Source: an uncultured Bryobacterales bacterium (GTDB lineage: Bacteria; Acidobacteriota; Terriglobia; Bryobacterales; UBA6623). Taken from it: a stretch of DNA of 64,000 nt. Both the position numbers and the translations under genes were made by a program. A model generated the notes under the pieces. That model had not been told where the DNA came from. It worked only from the letters and a program-made list of their open reading frames with translations, and ran no database searches. Below, in pieces: positions 3,827 through 38,168 of this stretch. The stretch's first letter is position 1. Each line of letters begins with the position of its first letter. The stretch lies in the NCBI GenBank assembly GCA_958295955.1, contig OY282420.1:400236-464235 (forward strand), given 5' to 3'.

Positions 3827-6532
3827 TCAGTTCGATCCCTCGACCATATCCAATACCACTCTTTGTTTTCCAAAGTCGAATCGAATGCGCATTCTATCGC
3901 CGGAACCGGCGCCTGCATGACGGATAAATTGATTGTATCCCCAGCTTGCTCCATTCTCGGCAACGCACACGCTGCCGCACAAGAGGCCGTCTTTGAACTC
4001 GGCGCTGAATCTCTGCCCCGATACGCAGTCACGGATCGAAGCCGGGATGCCGATTACGAGGGCGCCAAGCTCTTCCGGCAAAACCGCTTCTATTGTCAGG
4101 CTGCTCTCAGTGTGGCTAACGAAACTGACGGTACGCCTGTTGCGTCTCGGTTGAGTAGCGTCTTCAATAGATCCGATCACTTCAGGACTGTACCGGTATC
4201 CGCAAAGCCCCCAAATTCCCGTTGCAAGATTCTGCAGCATGGGGCTCCCGCCAAGAAGTGCGCTGAAGGCTGCGTCCCCGGACATCCCGTTCGCTTTGCA
4301 TTCTCGATACAATTCGTTGCGCCGCGCAATGTTGTCTTGTCTATCGAGCAAAGTTTGAACGACAATCTTTTCGTTGCCGGATAATTCAGCTCGGTAGTCA
4401 AGCTTCTCGAGCGAAGAAACTCGCTCGCCGTCAAATTCGAATTCGGGATGAGCAGCTACAAATGCGGATAGCAACGTTTTCTCCGGGGAAGTTATCCGCC
4501 AAGTTCTCCGGCCGCGACTCTGTCGATTCTTGTAGTGGCGGCGCACGCCATTCAGAATTTGGTCAATTTCGATTGGCCGCCCTAGCGACAACATCTTGCG
4601 GATAACATTTCGCAAGCGATTCCTCTCCGGCCTCAGACCGGGCGCCCAAAACCAATCCCCGATCAAAAACCGGACATGCGGGCGCAGAATTCGCCGGACA
4701 AATTCAGGGTCGGCAGCAGCACTCGATCGCTCTGCCTCGGCGACGACTTCCCGGATGCTGCTCACGCCGGACGCTCCGGCTTGCCGTTTCGCCAACGACA
4801 GGAATTCATTCACTCGATTCGATTCCGGGCGGTGCGCTTGAACGAGCAGCACATCGTCCGCAACCGAACGTTCTTCAAGCTGTAAATTACGGTGCAAATC
4901 GGAAGCTGCCTGCAGAATGCTTCTTGCTTCCCAAGGGCGATCCGCAAGGCCGGAACGACAGAGGGCTTCTCCGGCATCCGCAAGGGAAAGCGGGCAACTT
5001 TCGGCAAGAAAATCCAATGCGCGGTCCAACGCCGGCATGAATACGGGATGCGCAGGTATCCGGGGGCGGACTTTTTTCTCGATTTGTCTGATTCGTTCCC
5101 TCGTTACGTTCAAAACTTTACCGGCTTGCTCCAGCGTACGCTGCTCCGACCCGGTCCAGCCGAAGCGCACGCCCATTGCCTCTGCTTGTTTCGCATCCCC
5201 TTCACACAAAAGCGTAAGGTAGTCCCGGAGAGAGCTTTCAAGGGAAAGCGCCTCTATGCTGCGCATCCGTTGCTCAATCTGGGGGACTGCGGCCAGCAAG
5301 CTGCGAATTCGAAGCGCACGGTTCTCCTGATCATCCTCTATGAGTGTGCTATTGATCCGATTCAAGACTGTTTCCTTACCTCGAAAAGGCAAGACATCGT
5401 GAAACCTCAAGTCAAGCGGACTCACTTGAGAAACCCAAGCTTTGTCCATGAGGGCATGAAATTCATCTAATTCATCTTTACGAAGCTCCTCAAATGGCTG
5501 AGAAAAACCGATCGCCGGAGTCCCTGAATCACCCGGAAGAAAACCTTCCAAGACATTCAAAATACCGATTACCGAAACGAAACCCATGTTTTCCAGAGAG
5601 GCCAAATCTCCCATTGTCGTTTCCCATAGAGTTTTGGAGTCATTTAATAATCCTGCTCTCTCAAAAATGTTCCTCGTTCGCTTGCTCCATGGTAAAGAAC
5701 GAGGATCGATTTGAGAAGCGAACACCCCGTTAGATATTTTTCTATCGGCAATCTTCCGAATTTTTGTGCGGAGCATACTGGATGTCCAATTGATCAGATC
5801 TTTTCTGAGCAAAGCATTCGGCCAAATACCGGACTTCCACAAATCTTCCCCTGTCGCTCCGGGTTGCAGTTCGAGCGCAGCAGCAATTTGGCGCGGCAGC
5901 TTGGCCGGACCCCAAACATCGAACAAGGCTTCGGGCAGCGGCGGTCTCGCTTTTCTTTTTTCATGGGCCTGTTCGTTTTCTTGCCGGCTCAGGGAAATTT
6001 TGAAGCGCGACTTCCCGCCGCCTTCTTGCGGAGCTTCCGTACTCTCTGCACGCTGCCGTAACAACTCGGCCGCTGCTTCTGCCGTTGCCGTCGCATCGAG
6101 GATCGAAAGAATCCCCATATGGCGAATCCGTAACAGATCTGCAAAAGCCAGTCCGGCAAACTCTTGCGGACTATCGATCAGCCCTGCGGAAACAAGGCAA
6201 TTCATAGTCCGCATACGCCATGGAACAAGTCGCGGGGAAAGGCGTTCCGGCCAGTTGAATGGGAATGCCGGAAACTTTTTGATTTTGCTGCGGCGAATAC
6301 TAAATTCGTATGCCAACCATCTTTGAAGTCTATCCGTAAATTGTATGGGGTCGCTCAGCGATTCCGGACCAAGCTCCACGAATGTCGCCTTCTCCGGTAG
6401 ATTCAGAGCTGCAACAACCCACTGCGGCACTCTCTCGAGTTGCCAGCACTCGCGCAACAAACGCGGCAACAAGGGCGTTCCGGGTTCTCCCCAAGCCGAG
6501 AAACCGCTGTATTCGAATGGAGTTTCCACCAT
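3827..6532 (-). CDS. large DNA-binding-like protein: two alpha-CTD-like modules plus sigma region 4-like HTH
   Basis: 901 residues, not assigned to a named family. Residues about 35-150 and 212-330 are an internal duplication. Each ends in a helix-hairpin-helix unit like the RNA polymerase alpha C-terminal domain ('PWRMRTMNCLVSAGLIDS..LLRIRHMG' and 'PWSKRTRNIFERAGLLND..LASLENMG'). Residues about 455-490 form a sigma-70 region 4-like helix-turn-helix ('RTLEQAGKVLNVTRERIRQIEKKV' split: 'TLEQAGKVLNVT', 'RERIRQIEKKV'). Residues 500-780 look like several winged-helix units, and 800-897 are beta-rich. Base composition is visibly lower in GC than both neighbours and codon use differs, suggesting horizontal acquisition. 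No core sigma region 2 is present, so it is not a sigma factor. A role as regulator, silencer or defence-associated DNA-binding protein is a guess. Confidence 0.75.
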   Translation of the reverse strand: MVETPFEYSGFSAWGEPGTPLLPRLLRECWQLERVPQWVVAALNLPEKATFVELGPESLSDPIQFTDRLQRWLAYEFSIRRSKIKKFPAFPFNWPERLSPRLVPWRMRTMNCLVSAGLIDSPQEFAGLAFADLLRIRHMGILSILDATATAEAAAELLRQRAESTEAPQEGGGKSRFKISLSRQENEQAHEKRKARPPLPEALFDVWGPAKLPRQIAAALELQPGATGEDLWKSGIWPNALLRKDLINWTSSMLRTKIRKIADRKISNGVFASQIDPRSLPWSKRTRNIFERAGLLNDSKTLWETTMGDLASLENMGFVSVIGILNVLEGFLPGDSGTPAIGFSQPFEELRKDELDEFHALMDKAWVSQVSPLDLRFHDVLPFRGKETVLNRINSTLIEDDQENRALRIRSLLAAVPQIEQRMRSIEALSLESSLRDYLTLLCEGDAKQAEAMGVRFGWTGSEQRTLEQAGKVLNVTRERIRQIEKKVRPRIPAHPVFMPALDRALDFLAESCPLSLADAGEALCRSGLADRPWEARSILQAASDLHRNLQLEERSVADDVLLVQAHRPESNRVNEFLSLAKRQAGASGVSSIREVVAEAERSSAAADPEFVRRILRPHVRFLIGDWFWAPGLRPERNRLRNVIRKMLSLGRPIEIDQILNGVRRHYKNRQSRGRRTWRITSPEKTLLSAFVAAHPEFEFDGERVSSLEKLDYRAELSGNEKIVVQTLLDRQDNIARRNELYRECKANGMSGDAAFSALLGGSPMLQNLATGIWGLCGYRYSPEVIGSIEDATQPRRNRRTVSFVSHTESSLTIEAVLPEELGALVIGIPASIRDCVSGQRFSAEFKDGLLCGSVCVAENGASWGYNQFIRHAGAGSGDRMRIRFDFGKQRVVLDMVEGSN

Positions 6533-28084: not shown

Positions 28085-28224
28085 CCCCAACGTTGACAAC
28101 GGAACAGCGGCGGCGGTAGCTCCGCAAGCGGCATGCCCCGCAACGTCAATCGACGCGAAGCGTTCGAGCGCCTGCCCGGTTTCTTGCTCGCTCCCCCGCT
28201 GCTGCTCGCGGCCGAAAAGCCCGG
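28080..28224 (+). repeat. direct repeat, left copy: upstream region and 5' end of the alpha-hydroxy-acid oxidase gene
   Basis: Directly after the octaheme cytochrome stop the sequence is highly similar (roughly 85-90 percent by eye) to 39376-39525. Shared blocks include 'acgttgacaacgg', 'cgcaagcggcatg' and 'cgcgaagcgttcgagcgcct'. Homology ends at about 28224, in 'gccgaaaagcccg'. The right copy continues into the complete gene at 39428. Confidence 0.8.
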
Positions 28225-28225
28225 C
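28132..28225 (+). pseudogene. truncated 5' fragment of alpha-hydroxy-acid oxidase gene
   Basis: Reads MPRNVNRREAFERL... followed by 'PGFLLAPPLLLAAEKP', against 'SVNRREAFERLAGFLLASP' of the intact gene at 39428. Only about 31 codons survive; the sequence then diverges to unrelated DNA (28226-28305, nothing recognised), which leads into a PPK2 remnant on the other strand. Marks the left end of the 11-kb block described in the findings. Confidence 0.75.
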
Positions 28226-28305
28226 TACCCGTTCTTCGCTGTCCGTCGGCAACGGTAAGGTTGTAGGAGAAATGCTCGGTTGCCGCGCCGGCTGGAAGAG
28301 CATCG

Positions 28306-28720
28306 GTGGAAATCGCAGCCGGCCGGGCGTACCTCTTGTCGTTCGCCGAGATCGCGTTCCAGGGGATCGTGTCGATGGAGGTCAGCCGCAGCATGTCCTC
28401 CGTCGCCGTTGCGTATTCCGCCCACCGCGAGCAATTACGCAGATTTCCCTCGCAGAGCTTCCGGCGCCTGAAACGGTCTCGGCAGCGAGTCATCCGCTCA
28501 TCCTTCACGATGCGCATGCCTCTGTCGAAGAGCATGCGTTCGAACTCGTCGATCTCTCCGTAGGCGCGGCGCTTCCGGAGCCGGTAGGCCGCGGCCACTT
28601 CCTTGAGGCGAAGTTGGAGCCGAGACAGTTCCTTTTCGTACGCGCCTCGGTCGGCGCGCGGCGTCATGTCCGATCCGGCGAGTTGCGAGCCTTCGGCGTG
28701 GTATGACAGCAGCGGCAAGC
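28306..28720 (-). pseudogene. broken polyphosphate kinase 2 gene
   Basis: Reading leftwards, '[19 protein letters not shown]', '[10 protein letters not shown]' then jumps straight to 'YGEIDEFERMLFD', 'RRKLCEGNLRNCSRWAEYAT' and 'IPWNAISANDKRYARP'. Compared with the intact PPK2 at 24026-24889, about 90 codons from just after 'KRRA' to just before 'YEEINEFERM' are missing, which removes Walker A, the lid and Walker B. A second short loss removes the 'IFLHIT' strand. The 3' end is lost too. It cannot be active. It is much closer to the fragment at 37888-38094 than to the intact gene. Confidence 0.8.
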
Positions 28721-29170
28721 GCAACGGTCGCCGCCGTCTCGCCGGCGTTTTTCAACTGGGTCAACAACGCCGACGGGCGCAACCCGCTGATGGCGCTGCA
28801 CGGCGGCGGCCCCGACCTGGTCGGCGCGCCCGGCCTGCTGCCCGGAGCCGAGTTCACGCCGGCCGCGCCCGGCGAGGTCGTCACGCTGTACGGGACGGGT
28901 TTCGGGCCGACCGAGCCGGCTATCGCTGCGGGTCGCATCCCGGTCGCGGCGGCCAATCTGACGAACGCGGTCGCCTTTACCGTGGGCGGCATCGCCGTTG
29001 CCGCGCAAGACGTGCTCTACGCCGGCGCGTCGCCCTGCTGCGCCGGCCTCTATCAATTCACGGTGCGCCTGCCCGCCGACGTCCCCGACGGCGACGCAAC
29101 CGTCACCGCCGTCGTGCAGGGCGTCTCCACGCCCGAAGGACCGTACCTCACCGTCCGCCGCCCGCAGTGA
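28703..29170 (+). pseudogene. truncated TIGR03437-type C-terminal domain (remnant of a third NHL gene)
   Basis: A 155-codon open frame that begins inside the domain: 'ASATVAAVSPAFFNWVNNAD', 'GAPGLLPGAEFTPAAPGEVV', 'TLYGTGFGPTEPAIAAGRIP', ending 'STPEGPYLTVRRPQ'. It corresponds to the last part of the two complete NHL genes that follow, without signal peptide or NHL repeats. The left junction fuses it back to back with the PPK2 remnant at about 28700. The ATG at 28703 lies in PPK2-derived sequence and is probably accidental. Its first 30 bases match 35473-35500 in gene 3 more closely than gene 2, evidence of mosaic exchange. Confidence 0.75.
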
Positions 29171-29413: not shown

Positions 29414-29440
29414 TTGACAGGGCGTTGGCGGATAGAATAC
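29414..29440 (+). promoter_or_regulatory. putative sigma-70-type promoter of NHL gene 2
   Basis: TTGACA at 29414-29419 and GAATAC at 29435-29440 are separated by 15 bp, 12 bp ahead of the ATG at 29452. The -35 hexamer is perfect and is kept in copy B (32764) although the spacer has changed, which supports it. The spacing is short and the distance to the ATG leaves almost no 5' leader. Confidence 0.4.
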
Positions 29441-29451
29441 CTTTGTCGCAC

Positions 29452-32400
29452 ATGAGCGGCACGCAGCACAATAATTTTCTTTCGATGCAAAAAGATTGGC
29501 GCGAGAGCTCGACTCCGCGCCCGGATAATCTTAGCGCGGGCCGCGCGTTTTCCGCTCTTCTCTCTCCCTTCCCGGACTCGGTTCTCTTCGCTCTCTTCTT
29601 CAGGTTCTCCGCTCTTGCCGCCCCGCTCAGGCGGTCTTGCTCTGCGCTGACCCTTGCCGCGCTGTCTGTAGCGGTTGCCGGTGCGCAGCCCGCGGGCGAT
29701 TGGACCATCGAGACGGTCGCAGGGGGCGGCAGCTCCCTCGGGGACGGGGACAACGTCGCGGCTGTGGCGGCGCTACTGAACGACCCCACCGGCGTGGCGC
29801 TGGACGGCGCGGGCAACCTGTACATCGCCGATGCCGAAAACCACCGCATCCGCAAGGTGGACGCTGCGGGGGTGATCTCCACGGTGGCGGGCGCCGGGAC
29901 GGAAGGCTACAACGGGGACGGCGGCGCGGCTACGGCGGCGCAACTGAACTACCCCGTAGGCGTGGCGGTGGACGGCTCGGGCAACCTGTACATCGCCGAT
30001 TTGGGCAACCACCGCATCCGCAAGGTGGACTCTGCGGGGGGGATCTCCACGGTGGCGGGCGCCGGGAGCACCGGGGAGTCCGGCGGCGGCTTCGGCGGGG
30101 ACGGCGGCCCGGCTACGGCGGCGCAACTGCGCAGCCCCGCCGGCGTGGCGCTGGACGGCGCGGGCAACCTGTACATCGCCGATGCTTTGAACAACCGCAT
30201 CCGCAAGGTGGACTCTGCGGGGACGATCACCACGGTGGCGGGCGCCGGGACGGAAGGCTTCAGCGGGGACGGCGGCCCGGCTACGGCGGCGCAACTGTAC
30301 CGGCCCGCCGGCGTGGCGCTGGACGGAGCGGGCAACCTGTACATCGCCGATTTTGGCAACAACCGCATCCGCAAGGTGGACGCTGCGGGGGTGATCTCCA
30401 CGGTGGCGGGCGCCGGGAGCACCGGGGAGTCCGGCGGCGGCTTCGGCGGGGACGGCGGCCCGGCCACTGCGGCGCGGCTGTACCTCCCCAGGGGCGTGGC
30501 GCTGGACGGCGCGGGCAACCTGTACATCGCCGATCTGCTCAACCACCGCATCCGCAAGGTGGACGCTGCGGGGGTGATCTCCACGGTGGCGGGCGCCGGG
30601 AGCACCGGGGAGTCCGGCGGCGGCTTCGGCGGGGACGGCGGCCCGGCCGTTGCGGCGCGACTGAACTTCCCCGTAGGCGTGGCGGTGGACGGCTCGGGCA
30701 ACCTGTACATCGCCGATACGGACAACGACCGCATCCGCAAGGTGGACGCTGCGGGGGTGATCTCCACGGTGGCGGGAGGAGGCTACGGCGGGGACGGCGG
30801 CCCGGCTGTGGCGGCGCAACTGGACTGGCCCTTCGACGTGGCGCTGGACGGAGCGGGCAACCTGTACATCGCCGATTGGCTCCACAACCGCATCCGCAAG
30901 GTGGACGCTGCGGGGGTGATCTCCACGGTGGCGGGAGGTGGGTCGTCATTGGGGGACGGCGGCCCGGCTACGGCGGCGCAACTGAACTTCCCCGAAGGCG
31001 TGGCGCCGGACGGAGCCGGCAACCTGTACATCGCCGATACATACAACAACCGCATCCGCAAGGTGGACGCTGCGGGGGTGATCTCCACGGTGGCGGGAGG
31101 TGGGTCGTCATTGGGGGACGGCGGCCCGGCTACGGCGGCGCAACTGAGCGGACCCAGTGGCGTGGCGGTGGACGGAGCGGGCAACCTGTACATCGCCGAT
31201 AGGGGCAACCGGCGCATCCGCAAGGTGGACGCTGCGGGGGTGATCTCCACGGTGGCGGGAGGTGGGTCGTCATTGGGGGACGGCGGCCCGGCTACGGCGG
31301 CGCGACTGAACTTCCCCGTAGGCGTGGCGCTGGACGGCTCGGGCAACCTGTACATCGCCGATACGGACAACAACCGCATCCGCAAGGTGGACGCTGCGGG
31401 GGTGATCTCCACGGTGGCGGGCGACGGGACATGTTGCTACAGCGGGGACGGCGGCCCGGCCGTGGAGGCGCAACTGAGCGGACCCAGTGGCGTGGCGGTG
31501 GACGCCGCGGGCAACCTGTACATCGCCGATACGGAAAACGAACGCATCCGCAAAGTGGACGCTGCGGGGGTGATCTCCACGGTGGCGGGCGACGGGACGC
31601 ATGGCTTCGGCGGGGACGGCGGCGCGGCTACGGCGGCGCAACTGCGCAGACCCCGTGGCGTGGCGCCGGACGGAGCGGGCAACCTCTACATCGCCGATAC
31701 TTGGAACGATCGCATCCGCCGCTTGACGCCGCCCGCCATGCCCACGCCCAGCATCTCTGCGGGCGGCGTCGTGCTGGCCAGCGGAACCCCGCTGGTGAGC
31801 CGCATCTCGCCCAACGCGATCATTTCCGTCTTCGGACAGGGTTTCGCCGGGACGCGGACGCTGAACCCCGTCATCGACGCCGACGGCGGCATTGCCGTCA
31901 ACCTGGCCGCTACCTGCCTGCAGATCGGCGGCAAGCGCGCCCCGCTGTTCATAGTGACTCCGGGGCAGATCAACGCCCAGGTTCCGCACGACCTGGCGCC
32001 GGGAGAGGCGGCGTTGACCGTCACCCGCGGCTGCGGAACGACGAACGCACAGCGCAGCCCGGCGGAAACGGTTGCGGTCCGTACAGTCTCGCCGGCCTTC
32101 TTCAACTTCGTGAGCAACCCCGACGGGCGCAACCCGGTCGTGGCGCTGCACGGCGGAGGGCCGGGCTTTGTGGGAGCGCCCGGCCTGCTTCCCGGCGTAG
32201 AGTTCACGCCCGCCGCGCCGGGCGAGGTCGTCACGCTGTACGGGACCGGTTTCGGGGCGACCGAACCGGCCCTGGAAACGGGCGAGATACCGTCCCGTGC
32301 GGTCGATCTGGCGAACGCGGTCTTGTTTACCTTCGGCGGCATTGCGGTTCCTCCGGCGGACATCCTGTACAAGGGCGCGGCGCCCGGCCTCGCCGGGGTC

Positions 32401-32520
32401 TATCAGTTTGCGGTGCGCCTGCCGTCCAACCTCCCCGCCGGCAACGCAACCGTCACGGCCACAGTGCAGGGCGTCTCCACGCCCGAAGGACCGTACCTCA
32501 CCGTCCGCCGCCCGCAGTGA
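29452..32520 (+). CDS. secreted NHL-repeat protein with TIGR03437-type C-terminal domain (1022 aa)
   Basis: ATG chosen because the same start is conserved in the following paralogue. A long n-region leads to the signal sequence 'LTLAALSVAVAGAQPAGDW'. Twelve NHL repeats follow (about 54-63 residues each, residues about 110-760), each with 'GVALDGAGNLYIAD', two variable residues, 'N.RIRKVDAAG' and 'VISTVAG'. The dipeptides after YIAD run AE, LG, AL, FG, LL, TD, WL, TY, RG, TD, TE, TW. Repeats are almost identical as DNA outside those codons. The C-terminal about 230 residues are the Solibacter-type domain ('ISPNAIISVFGQGF', 'APLFIVTPGQINAQVPHDLA', 'VVTLYGTGFGATEPA'). Twelve repeats suggest two six-bladed propellers that bind ligands outside the cell. 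No catalytic residues recognised. Confidence 0.88.
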   Translation: MSGTQHNNFLSMQKDWRESSTPRPDNLSAGRAFSALLSPFPDSVLFALFFRFSALAAPLRRSCSALTLAALSVAVAGAQPAGDWTIETVAGGGSSLGDGDNVAAVAALLNDPTGVALDGAGNLYIADAENHRIRKVDAAGVISTVAGAGTEGYNGDGGAATAAQLNYPVGVAVDGSGNLYIADLGNHRIRKVDSAGGISTVAGAGSTGESGGGFGGDGGPATAAQLRSPAGVALDGAGNLYIADALNNRIRKVDSAGTITTVAGAGTEGFSGDGGPATAAQLYRPAGVALDGAGNLYIADFGNNRIRKVDAAGVISTVAGAGSTGESGGGFGGDGGPATAARLYLPRGVALDGAGNLYIADLLNHRIRKVDAAGVISTVAGAGSTGESGGGFGGDGGPAVAARLNFPVGVAVDGSGNLYIADTDNDRIRKVDAAGVISTVAGGGYGGDGGPAVAAQLDWPFDVALDGAGNLYIADWLHNRIRKVDAAGVISTVAGGGSSLGDGGPATAAQLNFPEGVAPDGAGNLYIADTYNNRIRKVDAAGVISTVAGGGSSLGDGGPATAAQLSGPSGVAVDGAGNLYIADRGNRRIRKVDAAGVISTVAGGGSSLGDGGPATAARLNFPVGVALDGSGNLYIADTDNNRIRKVDAAGVISTVAGDGTCCYSGDGGPAVEAQLSGPSGVAVDAAGNLYIADTENERIRKVDAAGVISTVAGDGTHGFGGDGGAATAAQLRRPRGVAPDGAGNLYIADTWNDRIRRLTPPAMPTPSISAGGVVLASGTPLVSRISPNAIISVFGQGFAGTRTLNPVIDADGGIAVNLAATCLQIGGKRAPLFIVTPGQINAQVPHDLAPGEAALTVTRGCGTTNAQRSPAETVAVRTVSPAFFNFVSNPDGRNPVVALHGGGPGFVGAPGLLPGVEFTPAAPGEVVTLYGTGFGATEPALETGEIPSRAVDLANAVLFTFGGIAVPPADILYKGAAPGLAGVYQFAVRLPSNLPAGNATVTATVQGVSTPEGPYLTVRRPQ

Positions 32521-32790: not shown

Positions 32791-32801
32791 CTTTGTCGCA
32801 C

Positions 32802-35800
32802 ATGAGCGGCACGCAGCACAATAATTTTCTTTCGATGCAAAAAGAATTGGCGCGAGAGCCTGCTCCGTGCCCGGATAATCTTAGCGCGGGCCGCGCGTTT
32901 TCCGCTCTTCTCTCTCCCTTCCCGGACTCGGTTCTCTTCGCTCTCTTCTTCAGGTTCTCCGCTCTTGCCGCCCCGCTCAGGCGGTCTTGCGCTGCGCTGG
33001 TCCTCGCCGCGCTGTCTGTAGCGGTTGCCGGGGCGCAGCCCGCGGGCGATTGGATCATCGAGACGGTCGCAGGGAGCGGCAGCTCCCTCGGGGACGGGGA
33101 CAACGGCGCGGCTGTGGCGGCGCTACTGGACAACCCCTCCGGCGTGGCGGTGGACGGAGCGGGCAACCTGTACATCGCCGATAGGGGCAACCACCGCATC
33201 CGCAAGGTGGACGCTGCGGGGGTGATCTCCACGGTGGCGGGCGACGGGACGCAAAGCTACGGCGGGGACGGCGGCCCGGCTACGGCGGCGCAACTCAGCT
33301 CCCCCGCAGGCGTGGCGCTGGACGGAGCGGGCAACCTGTACATCGCCGATAGGTCCAACCACCGCATCCGCAAGGTGGACGCTGCGGGGGTGATCACCAC
33401 GGTCGCGGGCGACGGGACGCAAGGCGGCGGCGGCTACGGCGTCTTCGGCGGGGACGGCGGCCCGGCTACGGCGGCGCAACTGAACTTCCCCCAAGGCGTG
33501 GCGCTGGACGGAGCGGGCAACCTGTACATCGCCGATTACTTCAACCACCGCATCCGCAAGGTGGACGCTGCGGGGGTGATCTCCACGGTGGCGGGCGACG
33601 GGACGCAAAGCTACGGCGGGGACGGCGGGGACGGCGGCCCGGCTACGGCGGCGCAACTGAACTTCCCCCAAGGCGTGGCGCTGGACGGCGCGGGCAACCT
33701 GTACATCGCCGGCAACGGCCGCATCCGCAAGGTGGACGCTGCGGGAGTGATCACCACGGTGGCGGGAGGTGGGTCGTCATTGGGGGACGGCGGCCCGGCC
33801 GTTGCGGCGCTACTGAGCGGACCCTACGGCGTGGCGCTGGACGGAGCGGGCAACCTTTACATCGCCGATAGGAACAACCACCGCATCCGCAAGGTGGACG
33901 CTGCGGGGGTGATCTCCACGGTGGCGGGCGACGGGACCTACGGCTTCGGCGGGGACGGCGGCCCGGCTGTGGCGGCGCAACTGGACACACCCTATGGCGT
34001 GGCGGTGGACGGAGCGGGCAACCTGTACATCGCCGATAGAAACAACCACCGCATCCGCAAGGTGGATTCTGCGGGGGCGATCTCCACTGTGGCGGGCGGA
34101 GGACCAATAGGGGACGGCGGCGCGGCCGTGGCGGCGCAACTGTACTCCCCCCAAGGCGTGGCGCCGGACGGCGCGGGCAACCTGTACATCGCCGATTTGG
34201 GCAACCGGCGCATCCGCAAGGTGGACGCTGCGGGGGTGATCTCCACGGTGGCGGGCGCCGGCACGCGCGGTTACGGCGGGGACGGCGGCGCGGCTACGGA
34301 GGCGCAACTGGGACCCCGCGGCGTGGCGTTGGACGGAGCGGGCAACCTGTACATCGCCGATACTTCCAACCACCGCATCCGCAAGGTGGACGCTGCGGGG
34401 GTGATCTCCACGGTGGCGGGCGACGGGACGCGCGGCTCCGGCGGGGACGGCGGCCCGGCCGTTGCGGCGCAACTGGACCTCCCCAATGGCGTGGCGCTGG
34501 ACGGCTTGGGCAACCTGTACATCGCCGATACGGGCAACCACCGCATCCGCAAGGTGGACGCTGCGGGGGTGATCTCCACGGTGGCGGGCGACGGCGAGGT
34601 CGGCTTCGGCGCGGGCGGTTACGGCGGGGACGGCGGCCCGGCTACGGCGGCGCAACTCAGCTTCCCCGAAGGCGTGGCGGCGGACGGAGCGGGCAACCTG
34701 TACATCGCCGATAGAAGCAACCACCGCATCCGCAAGGTGGACGCTGCGGGGGTGATCTCCACGGTGGCGGGCAGCGGCGAGGTCGGCTTCGGCGAGGGCG
34801 GCTACGGCGGGGACGGCGGCCCGGCCGTTGCGGCGCAACTGGACTGGCCCATCGGCGTGGCGCTGGACGGAGCGGGCAACCTGTACATCGCCGATTATTT
34901 GAACCACCGCATCCGCAAGGTGGACGCTGCGGGGGTGATCTCCACGGTGGCGGGCGACGGGACGCGCGGCTACGGCGAGGTCGGCTTCGGCGAGGTCGGC
35001 TTCGGCGAGGGCGGCTTCGGCGGGGACGGCGGCCCGGCCGTTGCGGCGCAACTGAACCGGCCCGCCGGCGTGGCGCTGGACGGCGCGGGCAACCTGTACA
35101 TCGCCGATTCCGGAAATGATCGCATCCGCCGCTTGACGCCGGCGGCCATGCACAGCATTTCCCCGGACGGCATCGTGCTGGCCACCGCAACCCCGCGGGT
35201 AAACCGCATCTCCCCCAACGCCATCATCTCCGTCTTCGGCCAAGACTTGGCCCCGCCGGGAACGCTCGCCACCGCCACTCTCAACCCCGCAGGCCGGGTT
35301 GCCGCCAACCTGGCCGCTACCTGCCTGGAGATCGGCGGCAAGCGCGCCCCGCTGTTCTATGTCGATCCCACTCAGATCAACGCCCAGGTTCCGCACGACC
35401 TGGCCCCGGGAGAGGCGGCGTTGATCGCCATTCGCGGCTGCGGAACGGCCAACGAACAGCGCAGCGCAGCGGCAAGCGCAACGGTCGCCGCCGTCTCGCC
35501 GGCGTTCTTCAACTTCGTGAGCAACCCCAACGGGCGCAACCCGGTCGTGGCGCTGCACGGCGGAGGGCCGGCGCTGATCGGCGCGCCCGGCCTGCTTCCC
35601 GGCGCGGAGTTCACGCCGGCCGCGCCCGGCGAGGTCGTCACGCTGTACGGGACCGGTTTCGGGGCGACCGAACCGGCCCTGGAAACGGGCGAGATACCGT
35701 CCCGTGCGGTCGATCTGGCGAACGCGGTCTTGTTTACCTTCGGCGGCATTGCGGTTCCTCCGGCGGACATCCTGTACAAGGGCGCGGCGCCCGGCCTCGC

Positions 35801-37403
35801 CGGGGTCTATCAGTTTGCGGTGCGCCTGCCGTCCAACCTCCCCGACGGCAACGCGGGCGTCGTGGCGACTGTCAACGGCGTTCCCACGCCCTCAGGGCCC
35901 TTCCTCACCGTCCGCGTTGCCGGCGGGGGCGGGACGACGACGGACGATCACGGCGACACGCCCGCCGAGGCGACCGCTCTGTCTCCAGGATCCCCTGCGC
36001 AGGGCCGCATCGAAACCGGCCGCGACGTGGACTATTTCCGGCTGCGGACCACCGCGGAGAGCAACGTCGAGATCTATACCAGCGGCTCCCTCGATACGAC
36101 GGGCTCGCTGCACGATTCCGCGAACAACAGAATCGTCGAGAACGACGATGGCGGGACGGGTAGCAATTTCCGCATTGCGAGGCGGCTTTCCGCGGGCGTG
36201 TATTACATCGCAGTAAGAAGCTCCGGCTCCCGCACGGGAAGCTACACCCTGCACGCGAGGGTTACCGACGCCCCGCCGCCGTCGAACCGCGCCGGCGGCC
36301 CGCTCACGCCCGGACAGCCCGCTAATTTCCGCTTGGGGCCGGTTGACAACCCGACGATCTTTCGCGGAGATTACTCATACCGGCTGGAGGTCCCTGAAAA
36401 TGCCTCCCGCGTAACCTTCGCCCTGAACTCCGCCGACCCCGATGTGGACGTGGATTTGTTCGTCCGTTTCGGAGAGGACAACGTTCTTCGAGATAGGAGA
36501 GTTGTTTCGGACTATTCTTCCGAGACGACATCCGGCAACGAGCGGATCGTCATTACCCGCTCCTCCGATCCCCCGCTCCGCCCCGGAACCTACTATGCCT
36601 CGCTGGCGCTATTCGACACGGGCGTCGTTGCCGAAGGCACGCTCACGGCAACCATAGAAACCGGCGGGGGCGGGACGACGACGGACGATCACGGCGACAC
36701 GCCCGCCGAGGCGACCGCTCTGTCTCCAGGATCCCCTGCGCAGGGCCGCATCGAAACCGGCCGCGACGTGGACTATTTCCGGCTGCGGACCACCGCGGAG
36801 AGCAACGTCGAGATCTATACCAGCGGCTCCCTCGATACGAGGGGCTCGCTGCACGATTCCGCGAACAACAGAATCGTCGAGAACGACGATGGCGGGACGG
36901 GTTCGAATTTCCGCATTGCGAGGCGGCTTTCCGCTGGCGTGTATTACATCGCAGTAAGCAGCTTCGGCTCCCGCACGGGAAGCTACACCCTGCACGCGAG
37001 GGTTACCGCCGCCCCGCCGCCGTCGAACCGCGCCGGCGGCCCGCTCACGCCCGGACAGCCCGCTAATTTCCGCTTGGGGCCGGTTGACAACCCGGCGCTC
37101 TTTCGCGGAGATTACTCATACCGGCTGGAGGTCCCCGCCAACGCCTCCCGCGTAACCTTCGTCCTGAACTCCGCCGACCCCGATGTGGACGCGGATTTGT
37201 ATGTCCGTTTCGGAGAGGACAACGTTGTTCGAGATGGGAGAGTTGTTTCGGACTATTCTTCCGTGACGACATCCGGCAACGAGCGGATCGTCATTACCCG
37301 CTCTTCCGATCCCCCGCTCCGCGCCGGAACCTACTATGTCTCGCTGTCGCTATTCGATACGGGCGTCGTTGCCGAAGGCACGCTCACGGCAACCGTGCAG
37401 TGA
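32802..37403 (+). CDS. giant secreted NHL-repeat protein with TIGR03437-type domain and duplicated PPC modules (1533 aa)
   Basis: Same leader and signal peptide as the preceding gene. Twelve NHL repeats (residues about 110-775); the dipeptides after YIAD are RG, RS, YF, a shortened repeat with 'YIAGNGRIRK', then RN, RN, LG, TS, TG, RS, YL, SG. The inter-blade loops also vary in length, with runs such as 'GEVGFGEVGFGEGGFGG'. The TIGR03437-type domain follows, with over 200 bases identical to gene 2. The C terminus has two copies of a 247-residue unit, each with two pre-peptidase C-terminal (PPC)-like domains: 'DVDYFRLRTTAESNVEIYTS', 'AGVYYIAVRSSGSRTGSYTL' and 'YSYRLEVPENASRVTFAL', 'PDVDVDLFVRFGEDNV'. 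Likely a cell-surface or secreted binding protein. Confidence 0.88.
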   Translation: MSGTQHNNFLSMQKELAREPAPCPDNLSAGRAFSALLSPFPDSVLFALFFRFSALAAPLRRSCAALVLAALSVAVAGAQPAGDWIIETVAGSGSSLGDGDNGAAVAALLDNPSGVAVDGAGNLYIADRGNHRIRKVDAAGVISTVAGDGTQSYGGDGGPATAAQLSSPAGVALDGAGNLYIADRSNHRIRKVDAAGVITTVAGDGTQGGGGYGVFGGDGGPATAAQLNFPQGVALDGAGNLYIADYFNHRIRKVDAAGVISTVAGDGTQSYGGDGGDGGPATAAQLNFPQGVALDGAGNLYIAGNGRIRKVDAAGVITTVAGGGSSLGDGGPAVAALLSGPYGVALDGAGNLYIADRNNHRIRKVDAAGVISTVAGDGTYGFGGDGGPAVAAQLDTPYGVAVDGAGNLYIADRNNHRIRKVDSAGAISTVAGGGPIGDGGAAVAAQLYSPQGVAPDGAGNLYIADLGNRRIRKVDAAGVISTVAGAGTRGYGGDGGAATEAQLGPRGVALDGAGNLYIADTSNHRIRKVDAAGVISTVAGDGTRGSGGDGGPAVAAQLDLPNGVALDGLGNLYIADTGNHRIRKVDAAGVISTVAGDGEVGFGAGGYGGDGGPATAAQLSFPEGVAADGAGNLYIADRSNHRIRKVDAAGVISTVAGSGEVGFGEGGYGGDGGPAVAAQLDWPIGVALDGAGNLYIADYLNHRIRKVDAAGVISTVAGDGTRGYGEVGFGEVGFGEGGFGGDGGPAVAAQLNRPAGVALDGAGNLYIADSGNDRIRRLTPAAMHSISPDGIVLATATPRVNRISPNAIISVFGQDLAPPGTLATATLNPAGRVAANLAATCLEIGGKRAPLFYVDPTQINAQVPHDLAPGEAALIAIRGCGTANEQRSAAASATVAAVSPAFFNFVSNPNGRNPVVALHGGGPALIGAPGLLPGAEFTPAAPGEVVTLYGTGFGATEPALETGEIPSRAVDLANAVLFTFGGIAVPPADILYKGAAPGLAGVYQFAVRLPSNLPDGNAGVVATVNGVPTPSGPFLTVRVAGGGGTTTDDHGDTPAEATALSPGSPAQGRIETGRDVDYFRLRTTAESNVEIYTSGSLDTTGSLHDSANNRIVENDDGGTGSNFRIARRLSAGVYYIAVRSSGSRTGSYTLHARVTDAPPPSNRAGGPLTPGQPANFRLGPVDNPTIFRGDYSYRLEVPENASRVTFALNSADPDVDVDLFVRFGEDNVLRDRRVVSDYSSETTSGNERIVITRSSDPPLRPGTYYASLALFDTGVVAEGTLTATIETGGGGTTTDDHGDTPAEATALSPGSPAQGRIETGRDVDYFRLRTTAESNVEIYTSGSLDTRGSLHDSANNRIVENDDGGTGSNFRIARRLSAGVYYIAVSSFGSRTGSYTLHARVTAAPPPSNRAGGPLTPGQPANFRLGPVDNPALFRGDYSYRLEVPANASRVTFVLNSADPDVDADLYVRFGEDNVVRDGRVVSDYSSVTTSGNERIVITRSSDPPLRAGTYYVSLSLFDTGVVAEGTLTATVQ
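35921..36661 (+). repeat. 741-bp in-frame tandem repeat of the PPC module, unit 1
   Basis: Begins with 'cggcgggggcgggacgacga' and is followed directly by a near-identical second unit. Codes for 247 residues made of two PPC-like beta domains and a short Gly/Thr linker. Long stretches (for example the DDHGDTPAEATA region) have no base differences from unit 2. Confidence 0.85.
36662..37402 (+). repeat. 741-bp in-frame tandem repeat of the PPC module, unit 2
   Basis: Second copy, ending at the stop codon of the gene. Differences from unit 1 are few (for example DTT to DTR, PTI to PAL, VDVDLF to VDADLY), so the duplication is recent or homogenised. Confidence 0.85.
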
Positions 37404-37650
37404 TGTTTGCGGCTGCGTCCGTCCGGGGAAAGGGGAAGCGAACGATGACGAACGCAAGCAAGGGCGGCGCTTGCGTTGCTCGCCCCTCGATTCCCGCTGG
37501 ACCGTTCTCGACTGTCCGCCTAAGAGGATGAAGCTGCAATCCCGTCTCGATCATGGAGAGCGTCGGCATTGTCATGATCGCGGGGACCGGCGAGAGCGAA
37601 TTGCGCGGCGACGGCGGGCTGCCGGGCGCCGAAATGGGTAGGCGACCGGC
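37404..37650. other. intergenic remnant DNA, no gene recognised
   Basis: No credible gene. On the minus strand a frame reads 'SLSPVPAIMTMPTLSMIETG' and 'LQLHPL', which may be a very decayed version of the PPK2 C-terminal end ('IPANDKK...VELQPPPL' in the intact gene), but the similarity is too weak to call. Confidence 0.3.
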
Positions 37651-37890
37651 ATGAACAGTTGGAAGGATGCCCACAGCTACATGAGTTGGTTGAGCCGGAA
37701 GACGGGAAAACAGTACCGCTTGTTGAGCGAGGCGGAGTGGGAGTACGCCGCGCGAGCGGGGACACGGACGCGGTACAGCTTCGGGGACGAGATAACGCCG
37801 AGCGATGCGAATTACGGCTGGAATACAAGAAAGACGCAGCCGGTAGGGAGCTATGAGGCAAACGGGTTTGGGCTGTACGACATGCACGGT
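37651..37890 (+). pseudogene. fragment of a formylglycine-generating enzyme (SUMF1/FGE) family gene
   Basis: About 80 codons match the middle of FGE-sulfatase domain proteins: '[20 protein letters not shown]', '[16 protein letters not shown]', '[16 protein letters not shown]', '[18 protein letters not shown]'. Both the N terminus with the start of the domain and the C-terminal part after 'LYDMHG' are absent; at about 37890 the sequence switches to PPK2 DNA on the opposite strand. A TAG stop sits in frame just upstream of the ATG. Not functional. Confidence 0.8.
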
Positions 37891-38094
37891 GCGTCGGATG
37901 ACGCCGCCCTTGCCCGCAGCGTCCCAGCCTTCGAACACGACGACGGCGCGGCGCTTCCGGAGCCGGTAGGCCGCGGCCACTTCCTTGAGGCGAAGTTGGA
38001 GCCGAGACAGTTCCTTCTCGTACGCGCCTCGGTCGGCGCGCAGCGTCATGTCCGATCCGGCGAGTTGCGAGCCTTCGGCATGGCATGACAGCAG
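37888..38094 (-). pseudogene. 5' fragment of polyphosphate kinase 2 gene
   Basis: Reading leftwards, '[20 protein letters not shown]', '[20 protein letters not shown]', '[19 protein letters not shown]' and 'VIRRT', then the frame runs into the FGE fragment. Walker A is kept, but everything after it is lost. It is nearly identical to the 5' part of the pseudogene at 28306-28720, and both end outward at the same 'atgacagcag' boundary, so the two come from one duplicated locus. Confidence 0.8.
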
Positions 38095-38168
38095 CGCGGG
38101 CGGAACGCTGCGATCAAGGCTGAGAGCAAGCTCCAGGGCTGACACGGCCCCTGCCGTTGCGCTATTTT

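Follow-up and report, generated by a model that had tools for sequence, protein, structure and literature searches.

A 901-residue protein joining duplicated alpha-CTD-type domains, sigma region 4 and winged helices in an uncultured Bryobacterales bacterium, a possible promoter-reading silencer

The window (the whole 64,000-nucleotide stretch that was analysed) contains a gene for a 901-aa protein in which two copies of a module ending in an alpha-CTD-type domain are joined to sigma region 4 and tandem winged helices. The results established this domain content, the duplication, the conservation of DNA-contacting residues, a family of relatives and a composition compatible with transfer. Based on these results, we put forward, with confidence evenly divided for and against, that the protein is a horizontally acquired, non-catalytic accessory DNA-binding protein which reads the upstream half of promoters and is likely to be a silencer or repressor. 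The domains themselves are known; the family and the combination are undescribed. If the proposal is true, detached promoter-recognition domains in one chain would provide a simple, sequence-based recognition of active or foreign genes.

The gene and its locus

3827..6532, minus strand: whole gene for an accessory multi-domain DNA-binding protein of 901 aa (open reading frame, composition)

The ORF begins with ATG and is intact, with no internal stops. Its GC content is 0.534 and its GC3 is 0.547, whereas the GC3 of all seven neighbouring genes is 0.79-0.85. A GC3 so far below that of the neighbours fits recent acquisition, and thus supports the recent transfer that the initial annotation had suggested from a composition unlike that of both sides. 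The gene is flanked by genes for a radical SAM enzyme, a methyltransferase, a DUF4159 protein and a nidogen (NIDO)/Ig-like protein; argS and alr, identified by reading the ORF sequences, are also among its neighbours. No plausible effector or defence gene was present among the flanking genes, in agreement with the earlier remark that no companion effector is visible here. Terminator-like hairpins, which are consensus matches only, occur immediately past the upstream gene and past the 901-aa gene; with a hairpin on each side, the gene is probably transcribed alone as a single unit. In an empty-site comparison, the DUF4159 gene was common to the relatives and the gene beyond it differed, so the insertion boundary could not be placed.

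Elsewhere in the window, an N-terminal stretch, LSHMSGTQHNNFLSMQK, is common to two tandem large ORFs (29425-32520 and 32793-37403). Two similar short ORFs on the opposite strand (28146-28724 and 37384-38145) bracket the pair, and a duplication is likely.

Sigma region 4

5048..5242, minus strand: sigma region 4, residues 431-495 (Pfam, NCBIfam, PDB sequence, AF2, fold match)
5072..5104, minus strand: T477-RERIRQIEKK-487, the -35 recognition helix, with almost no variation among family members (family alignments)

The sigma region 4 assignment is statistically secure and beyond doubt, as the initial annotation had read it from the helix-turn-helix (HTH). Pfam Sigma70_r4 (PF04545) matched residues 448-488 with an E value of 1.7e-7, over the curated cut-off, and PDB sigma4 chains matched both in sequence (E 1.6e-7) and in fold comparison with the model (TM 0.61-0.74, identity 39-44%). 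NCBIfam sigma models matched around region 4 only, save for one weak, stretched ECF match. No sigma region 2 was detected by Pfam at E up to 1, and no catalytic domain by Pfam, NCBIfam or PADLOC; both had been described as missing. The protein was therefore rejected as a true sigma-70 factor, since region 4 is present and region 2 (-10 recognition, core binding) is absent.

The TRER(I/V/A)RQ(I/V) helix was identical or nearly so in the window protein, 12 relatives, 3 sister proteins and the genuine sigma factors of the phylum, and E479, R480, R482 and Q483 were invariant throughout the core family. Since this helix is almost unchanged in proteins that are only ca. 21% identical outside it, the function kept in the family is suggested, from these alignments, to be the reading of -35-like DNA. 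The sigma4 fold also serves as a generic HTH in MzaA, BrxL and DndH, so it need not confer -35 specificity. BrxL and large DndH variants carry a sigma-factor-like HTH as an extra DNA-binding domain joined to ATPases or nucleases (PMC12839542, PMC10853773), unlike the window protein, which has no enzyme. MzaA, the sigma-like protein of the MZA anti-phage system, has sigma region 4 in ca. 700 aa without being a full sigma factor, and was the best NCBIfam match to the window protein (40.8 bits, residues 399-488 only). Membership was rejected because the family cut-off is 800 bits and the likeness does not extend beyond sigma4 and a few residues next to it; no MzaB-E partners were found among the adjacent genes.

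The duplicated module and its alpha-CTD-type domains

6038..6475, minus strand: module copy 1, residues ~20-165 (self-alignment)
5498..5944, minus strand: module copy 2, residues ~197-345 (self-alignment)
6053..6250, minus strand: alpha-CTD-type domain of copy 1, residues ~95-160 (Pfam E 0.0064, alignment, bridge via L119)
5519..5719, minus strand: alpha-CTD-type domain of copy 2, residues ~272-338 (bridging relative, profile comparison)

The duplication of an alpha-CTD-like module, claimed in the initial annotation, was confirmed by self-alignment, in which residues ~20-165 and ~197-345 gave a BLOSUM score of 129 as against 30.4 ± 5.1 for shuffled sequences (0 of 1000 reached 129). The duplicated module spans ca. 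120 residues and ends in an alpha-CTD-type domain. Pfam PF03118 scored the window protein at 13.5-16.6 bits, under the gathering score of 23.8, with sub-threshold E values of 0.059 for the whole protein and 0.0064 for the N-terminal 350 aa. In profile-profile comparison, the two copies scored 25.1 against the RpoA CTDs of relatives (best of 200 column-shuffled decoys, 17.3) and 46.7 against accessory alpha-CTDs (probability 95.5%, E 1.4e-8; best decoy, 21.2), and the accessory alpha-CTDs matched the RpoA CTDs with E 2.8e-12. The homology is thus transitive, through the accessory proteins L119, L131 and L133. L119 was similar to the two copies with scores of 69 and 44, compared with ca. 25 for shuffled sequences, and it is this bridging relative which secures an assignment that is weak by Pfam alone. 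Taken together, the profile comparisons support an alpha-CTD-type domain at the end of both copies. When the copies were aligned directly to the alpha-CTD in another relative, L064, significance was not reached (27/500 and 76/500 shuffles).

R265, N268, G296, K298 and S299 belong to the DNA-binding determinant of E. coli alpha, and their counterparts were placed from the alignment and the sequence. Copy 1 has R108, N111, C112, G140 and S143 at the positions of R265, N268, C269, G296 and S299, with L142 in place of K298, and copy 2 has R285, N288, G317 and S320 at those of R265, N268, G296 and S299. The counterpart of K298 is missing from both copies.

Linker, winged helices and C-terminal region

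5243..5479, minus strand: helical linker, residues ~352-430 (alignment; weak, P 0.0065)
4823..5035, minus strand: winged helix 1, residues ~500-570 (AF2 pLDDT ~80, H-H-H-E-E)
4637..4816, minus strand: winged helix 2, residues ~573-632, conserved W-FW motif (alignment, AF2)
4403..4630, minus strand: winged helix 3, residues ~635-710, conserved RNRL....K motif (alignment, AF2)
4193..4396, minus strand: winged helix 4, residues ~713-780, conserved SP motif (alignment, AF2)
3830..4135, minus strand: C-terminal beta-rich region, residues ~800-901 (alignments; low-confidence model)

AF2, supplied with an alignment of the window protein and four chromosomal relatives, modelled residues 430-770 as sigma4 followed by four winged-helix units with a pLDDT of about 80; the units fall between residues 500 and 775 (pLDDT ~70-90) and bear out the several winged-helix-like units read earlier. 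Structure prediction per domain, which had been proposed as a check, therefore served for sigma4 and the winged helices; the alpha-CTD module alone reached a pLDDT of 46, gave no usable model, and returned no Foldseek matches with that low-confidence model. Foldseek with this modelled part found the tandem winged-helix proteins UFL1/DDRGK1 and SelB WH2-4, a likeness that is only suggestive at these modest E values (best 5.9e-3). A HARE-HTH domain was not matched in the window protein by Pfam at E up to 1. The linker is partly alignable with betaproteobacterial plasmid relatives (..W[VI]xxLxxxDxRF..), and the C-terminal beta-rich region is common to L032, L035, L036 and L067; its alignment with L119 covers 30 columns and is weak.

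A rare and patchy core family

We define the core family by a sigma4 and, after it, winged helices of ca. 300 residues in total that can be aligned from end to end. The core profile matched the window protein, itself part of the profile, with E 1.6e-102, and three members left out of the profile with E 8e-24 to 5e-42. The core aligns with plasmid proteins of Pseudomonas (megaplasmids), Diaphorobacter, Variovorax, Rhodoferax and Piscinibacter, and with proteins from four genomes in the same order as the window. Profile searches placed it in 5 of the 250 genomes of the order, the window's own counted, and in 4 of the 237 genomes of a neighbouring family, with one marginal extra match in 247 phylum genomes; the family is thus rare and patchy. 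A search of the phylum with the whole protein had returned housekeeping sigma factors only, and it was redone with protein pieces and profiles. The N-terminal 350 aa gave no tblastn match in plasmids. Candidates for close relatives on viral contigs, and DNA-pattern scan matches in viral and genome contigs, were unrelated when checked with the core profile.

This family is unnamed and undescribed and has no Pfam model beyond sigma4; building one would improve annotation. Plasmid entries named 'sigma factor-like helix-turn-helix DNA-binding protein' (WP_166312422.1, WP_068684742.1) are homologous to the window protein in sigma4, the winged helices and the C-terminal region (identity 21-25%, E to 8.6e-14), but their N-terminal halves differ and have no clear alpha-CTD; that of the Rhodoferax plasmid protein carries XRE HTHs. 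L064 (genome G614) has a clear alpha-CTD (Pfam E 3.6e-11), a weak sigma4 and the same core, so the order alpha-CTD, sigma4, winged helix is not unique to the window. The L064 gene (L064:3-3713), cut by the contig end, encodes at least 1237 aa, including an extra C-terminal part of ca. 600 residues without a Pfam match.

Replication clusters and lone genes

On four Pseudomonas megaplasmids, the family gene lies inside a conserved dnaQ-dnaB-dnaE-(hyp)-gene-dnaG-DEAD cluster, and its products are 49-64% identical, comparable to the replication neighbours. The initial annotation had set its reading against homologues that are invariably single housekeeping genes, and half of that picture was found, the gene being a conserved core gene on these megaplasmids. 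For the burkholderial plasmid copies of Diaphorobacter and Variovorax, RepL/ParB or a replication initiator is encoded no more than ca. 8 kb away. These placements are consistent with a replicon-maintenance factor, controlling plasmid or megaplasmid replication or silencing genes there and captured by the window genome. However, no replication initiator was found within 9 kb of the Rhodoferax and Piscinibacter copies, no replication genes near the chromosomal members, and no alpha-CTD modules in the short megaplasmid members, and we consider this explanation improbable.

Four chromosomal relatives (L061-L064) are single genes. LysR-type regulators (L061:10181-11173, L062:8794-9774) adjoin two of these, in differing gene order.

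A sister protein in a phosphorothioation operon

The locus of L119, a protein of the window's own taxonomic family, is a DNA-phosphorothioation (Pbe/Dnd) defence island. L119 has 712 residues with an alpha-CTD (E 1.6e-4) and sigma4 (E 4.8e-7), and is the first gene of an operon in genome G400 (L119:6388-10655, L134:871-6869). A PbeA-type helicase gene starts three bases past it (PADLOC 493 bits; TIGR04095 E 1.4e-92), followed in turn by one for a PbeC/DndD-type ATPase; the operon adjoins genes for a PT-DNA restriction endonuclease, a Dnd-associated methyltransferase and a cysteine desulfurase. PbeABCD-type systems comprise the HKD nuclease-helicase PbeA, the small protein PbeB, the ABC ATPase PbeC and PbeD, a DndE, and the portion of that account devoted to them names no alpha-CTD and sigma4 component (PMC10853773). 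The L119-type protein is a possible unrecognised component of phosphorothioation systems. Its alpha-CTD, sigma4 and C-terminal region are ordered as in the window protein, from which it differs in having one alpha-CTD instead of two, a separate clade and a defence operon.

A second likeness is to PglW of type-2 BREX, in which an alpha-CTD is followed by three winged helices (PMC12839542). An example, L115, scored 1369 bits with the PADLOC PglW model and E 1.5e-11 with the Pfam alpha-CTD. Both proteins place an alpha-CTD-type domain before several winged helices in a single chain, but a NERD nuclease, two kinase domains and a C-terminal iSTAND are found in PglW alone, and a genuine sigma4 and a pair of alpha-CTDs in the window protein alone. 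PglW membership was rejected, as no NERD nuclease or kinase matched.

L119, PglW and the Actinobacterial plasmid relatives (L129:7848-16641, L127, L128), which have DUF499/DUF1156/helicase genes or, on plasmids of 14-17 kb, UvrD/PD-(D/E)XK/DUF4011 genes alongside, point to the main rival explanation. Here the protein would be the DNA-recognition subunit, now orphaned, of a system directed against invaders, finding foreign DNA with its promoter-reading domains, the nuclease or helicase being encoded elsewhere or lost. This evidence is indirect. The proposed survey of homologue neighbourhoods for enzyme partners found them with L119 and the Actinobacterial relatives; no defence genes were found near the window gene, L061-L064 or the Pseudomonas members. 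Genes of the PbeA/PbeC/DndE type are absent from the flanks of the window gene and were found only beside L119. Moreover, L119 belongs to a sister clade that a long branch in the tree separates from the window's, and L131, its closest relative, is a lone gene. Since most relatives on the window's own branch are lone or in plasmid replication regions, we regard the DNA-recognition role in defence envisaged in the initial annotation as rather unlikely for this protein.

Proposed function

The placement in megaplasmid replication clusters and the sister in a defence operon suggest roles other than transcription control. The neighbourhood of the 901-aa gene itself favours silencing over replicon control or defence recognition, though L119 and PglW leave some probability for defence. 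For silencing, we infer the following course of binding, occlusion and regulation. Sigma4 would recognise a -35-like sequence, and the paired alpha-CTD-type domains would bind next to it, in the minor groove of A/T-rich, UP-element-like DNA; further contacts with DNA or a partner may come from the tandem winged helices and the beta domain at the C-terminus. The protein would thereby occupy promoter-like DNA and silence or repress accessory genes, or mark that DNA. Since the protein has no sigma2, promoter melting would be impossible, and promoter occupancy as a silencer or repressor is the most likely outcome. In favour of the silencer we counted the conserved sigma4 helix, the kept alpha residues, the lack of sigma2 and of an enzyme, the patchy spread, the GC3 and the lone gene; against it we counted the loss of alpha K298, the use of sigma4 as a generic HTH elsewhere and the low-confidence AlphaFold result for the alpha-CTD modules.

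Because the protein carries copies of RNA polymerase parts, it might instead be a decoy that sequesters sigma- or alpha-interacting surfaces. Such sequestering, which the initial annotation had entertained, gained no specific support: the conserved residues are those contacting DNA, and short family members have no alpha-CTD. We consider it very improbable.

More broadly, the protein may represent an undescribed 'promoter-reader' family, in which UP-element and -35 domains derived from RNA polymerase generally find or silence foreign or accessory DNA across megaplasmids, lone genes and phosphorothioation/BREX systems; we hold this generalisation to be doubtful. That a lone mobile gene, megaplasmid replication clusters, a phosphorothioation operon and PglW all contain these parts leads to one question, namely whether promoters are targeted.

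Smaller proteins with related parts were also observed. In genome G430, L116:4893-5609 and L117:5503-6147 encode proteins of ca. 215-240 aa that represent the alpha-CTD and sigma4 combination in minimal form, with a weak sigma4-like HTH and an alpha-CTD-type domain (E ~3e-7). L132:8259-9131 and L133:290-1162 (genomes G404 and G426) have an alpha-CTD-like domain and a degenerate sigma4-like stretch; both have the same two neighbours, one resembling proS, and the arrangement looks vertically conserved.
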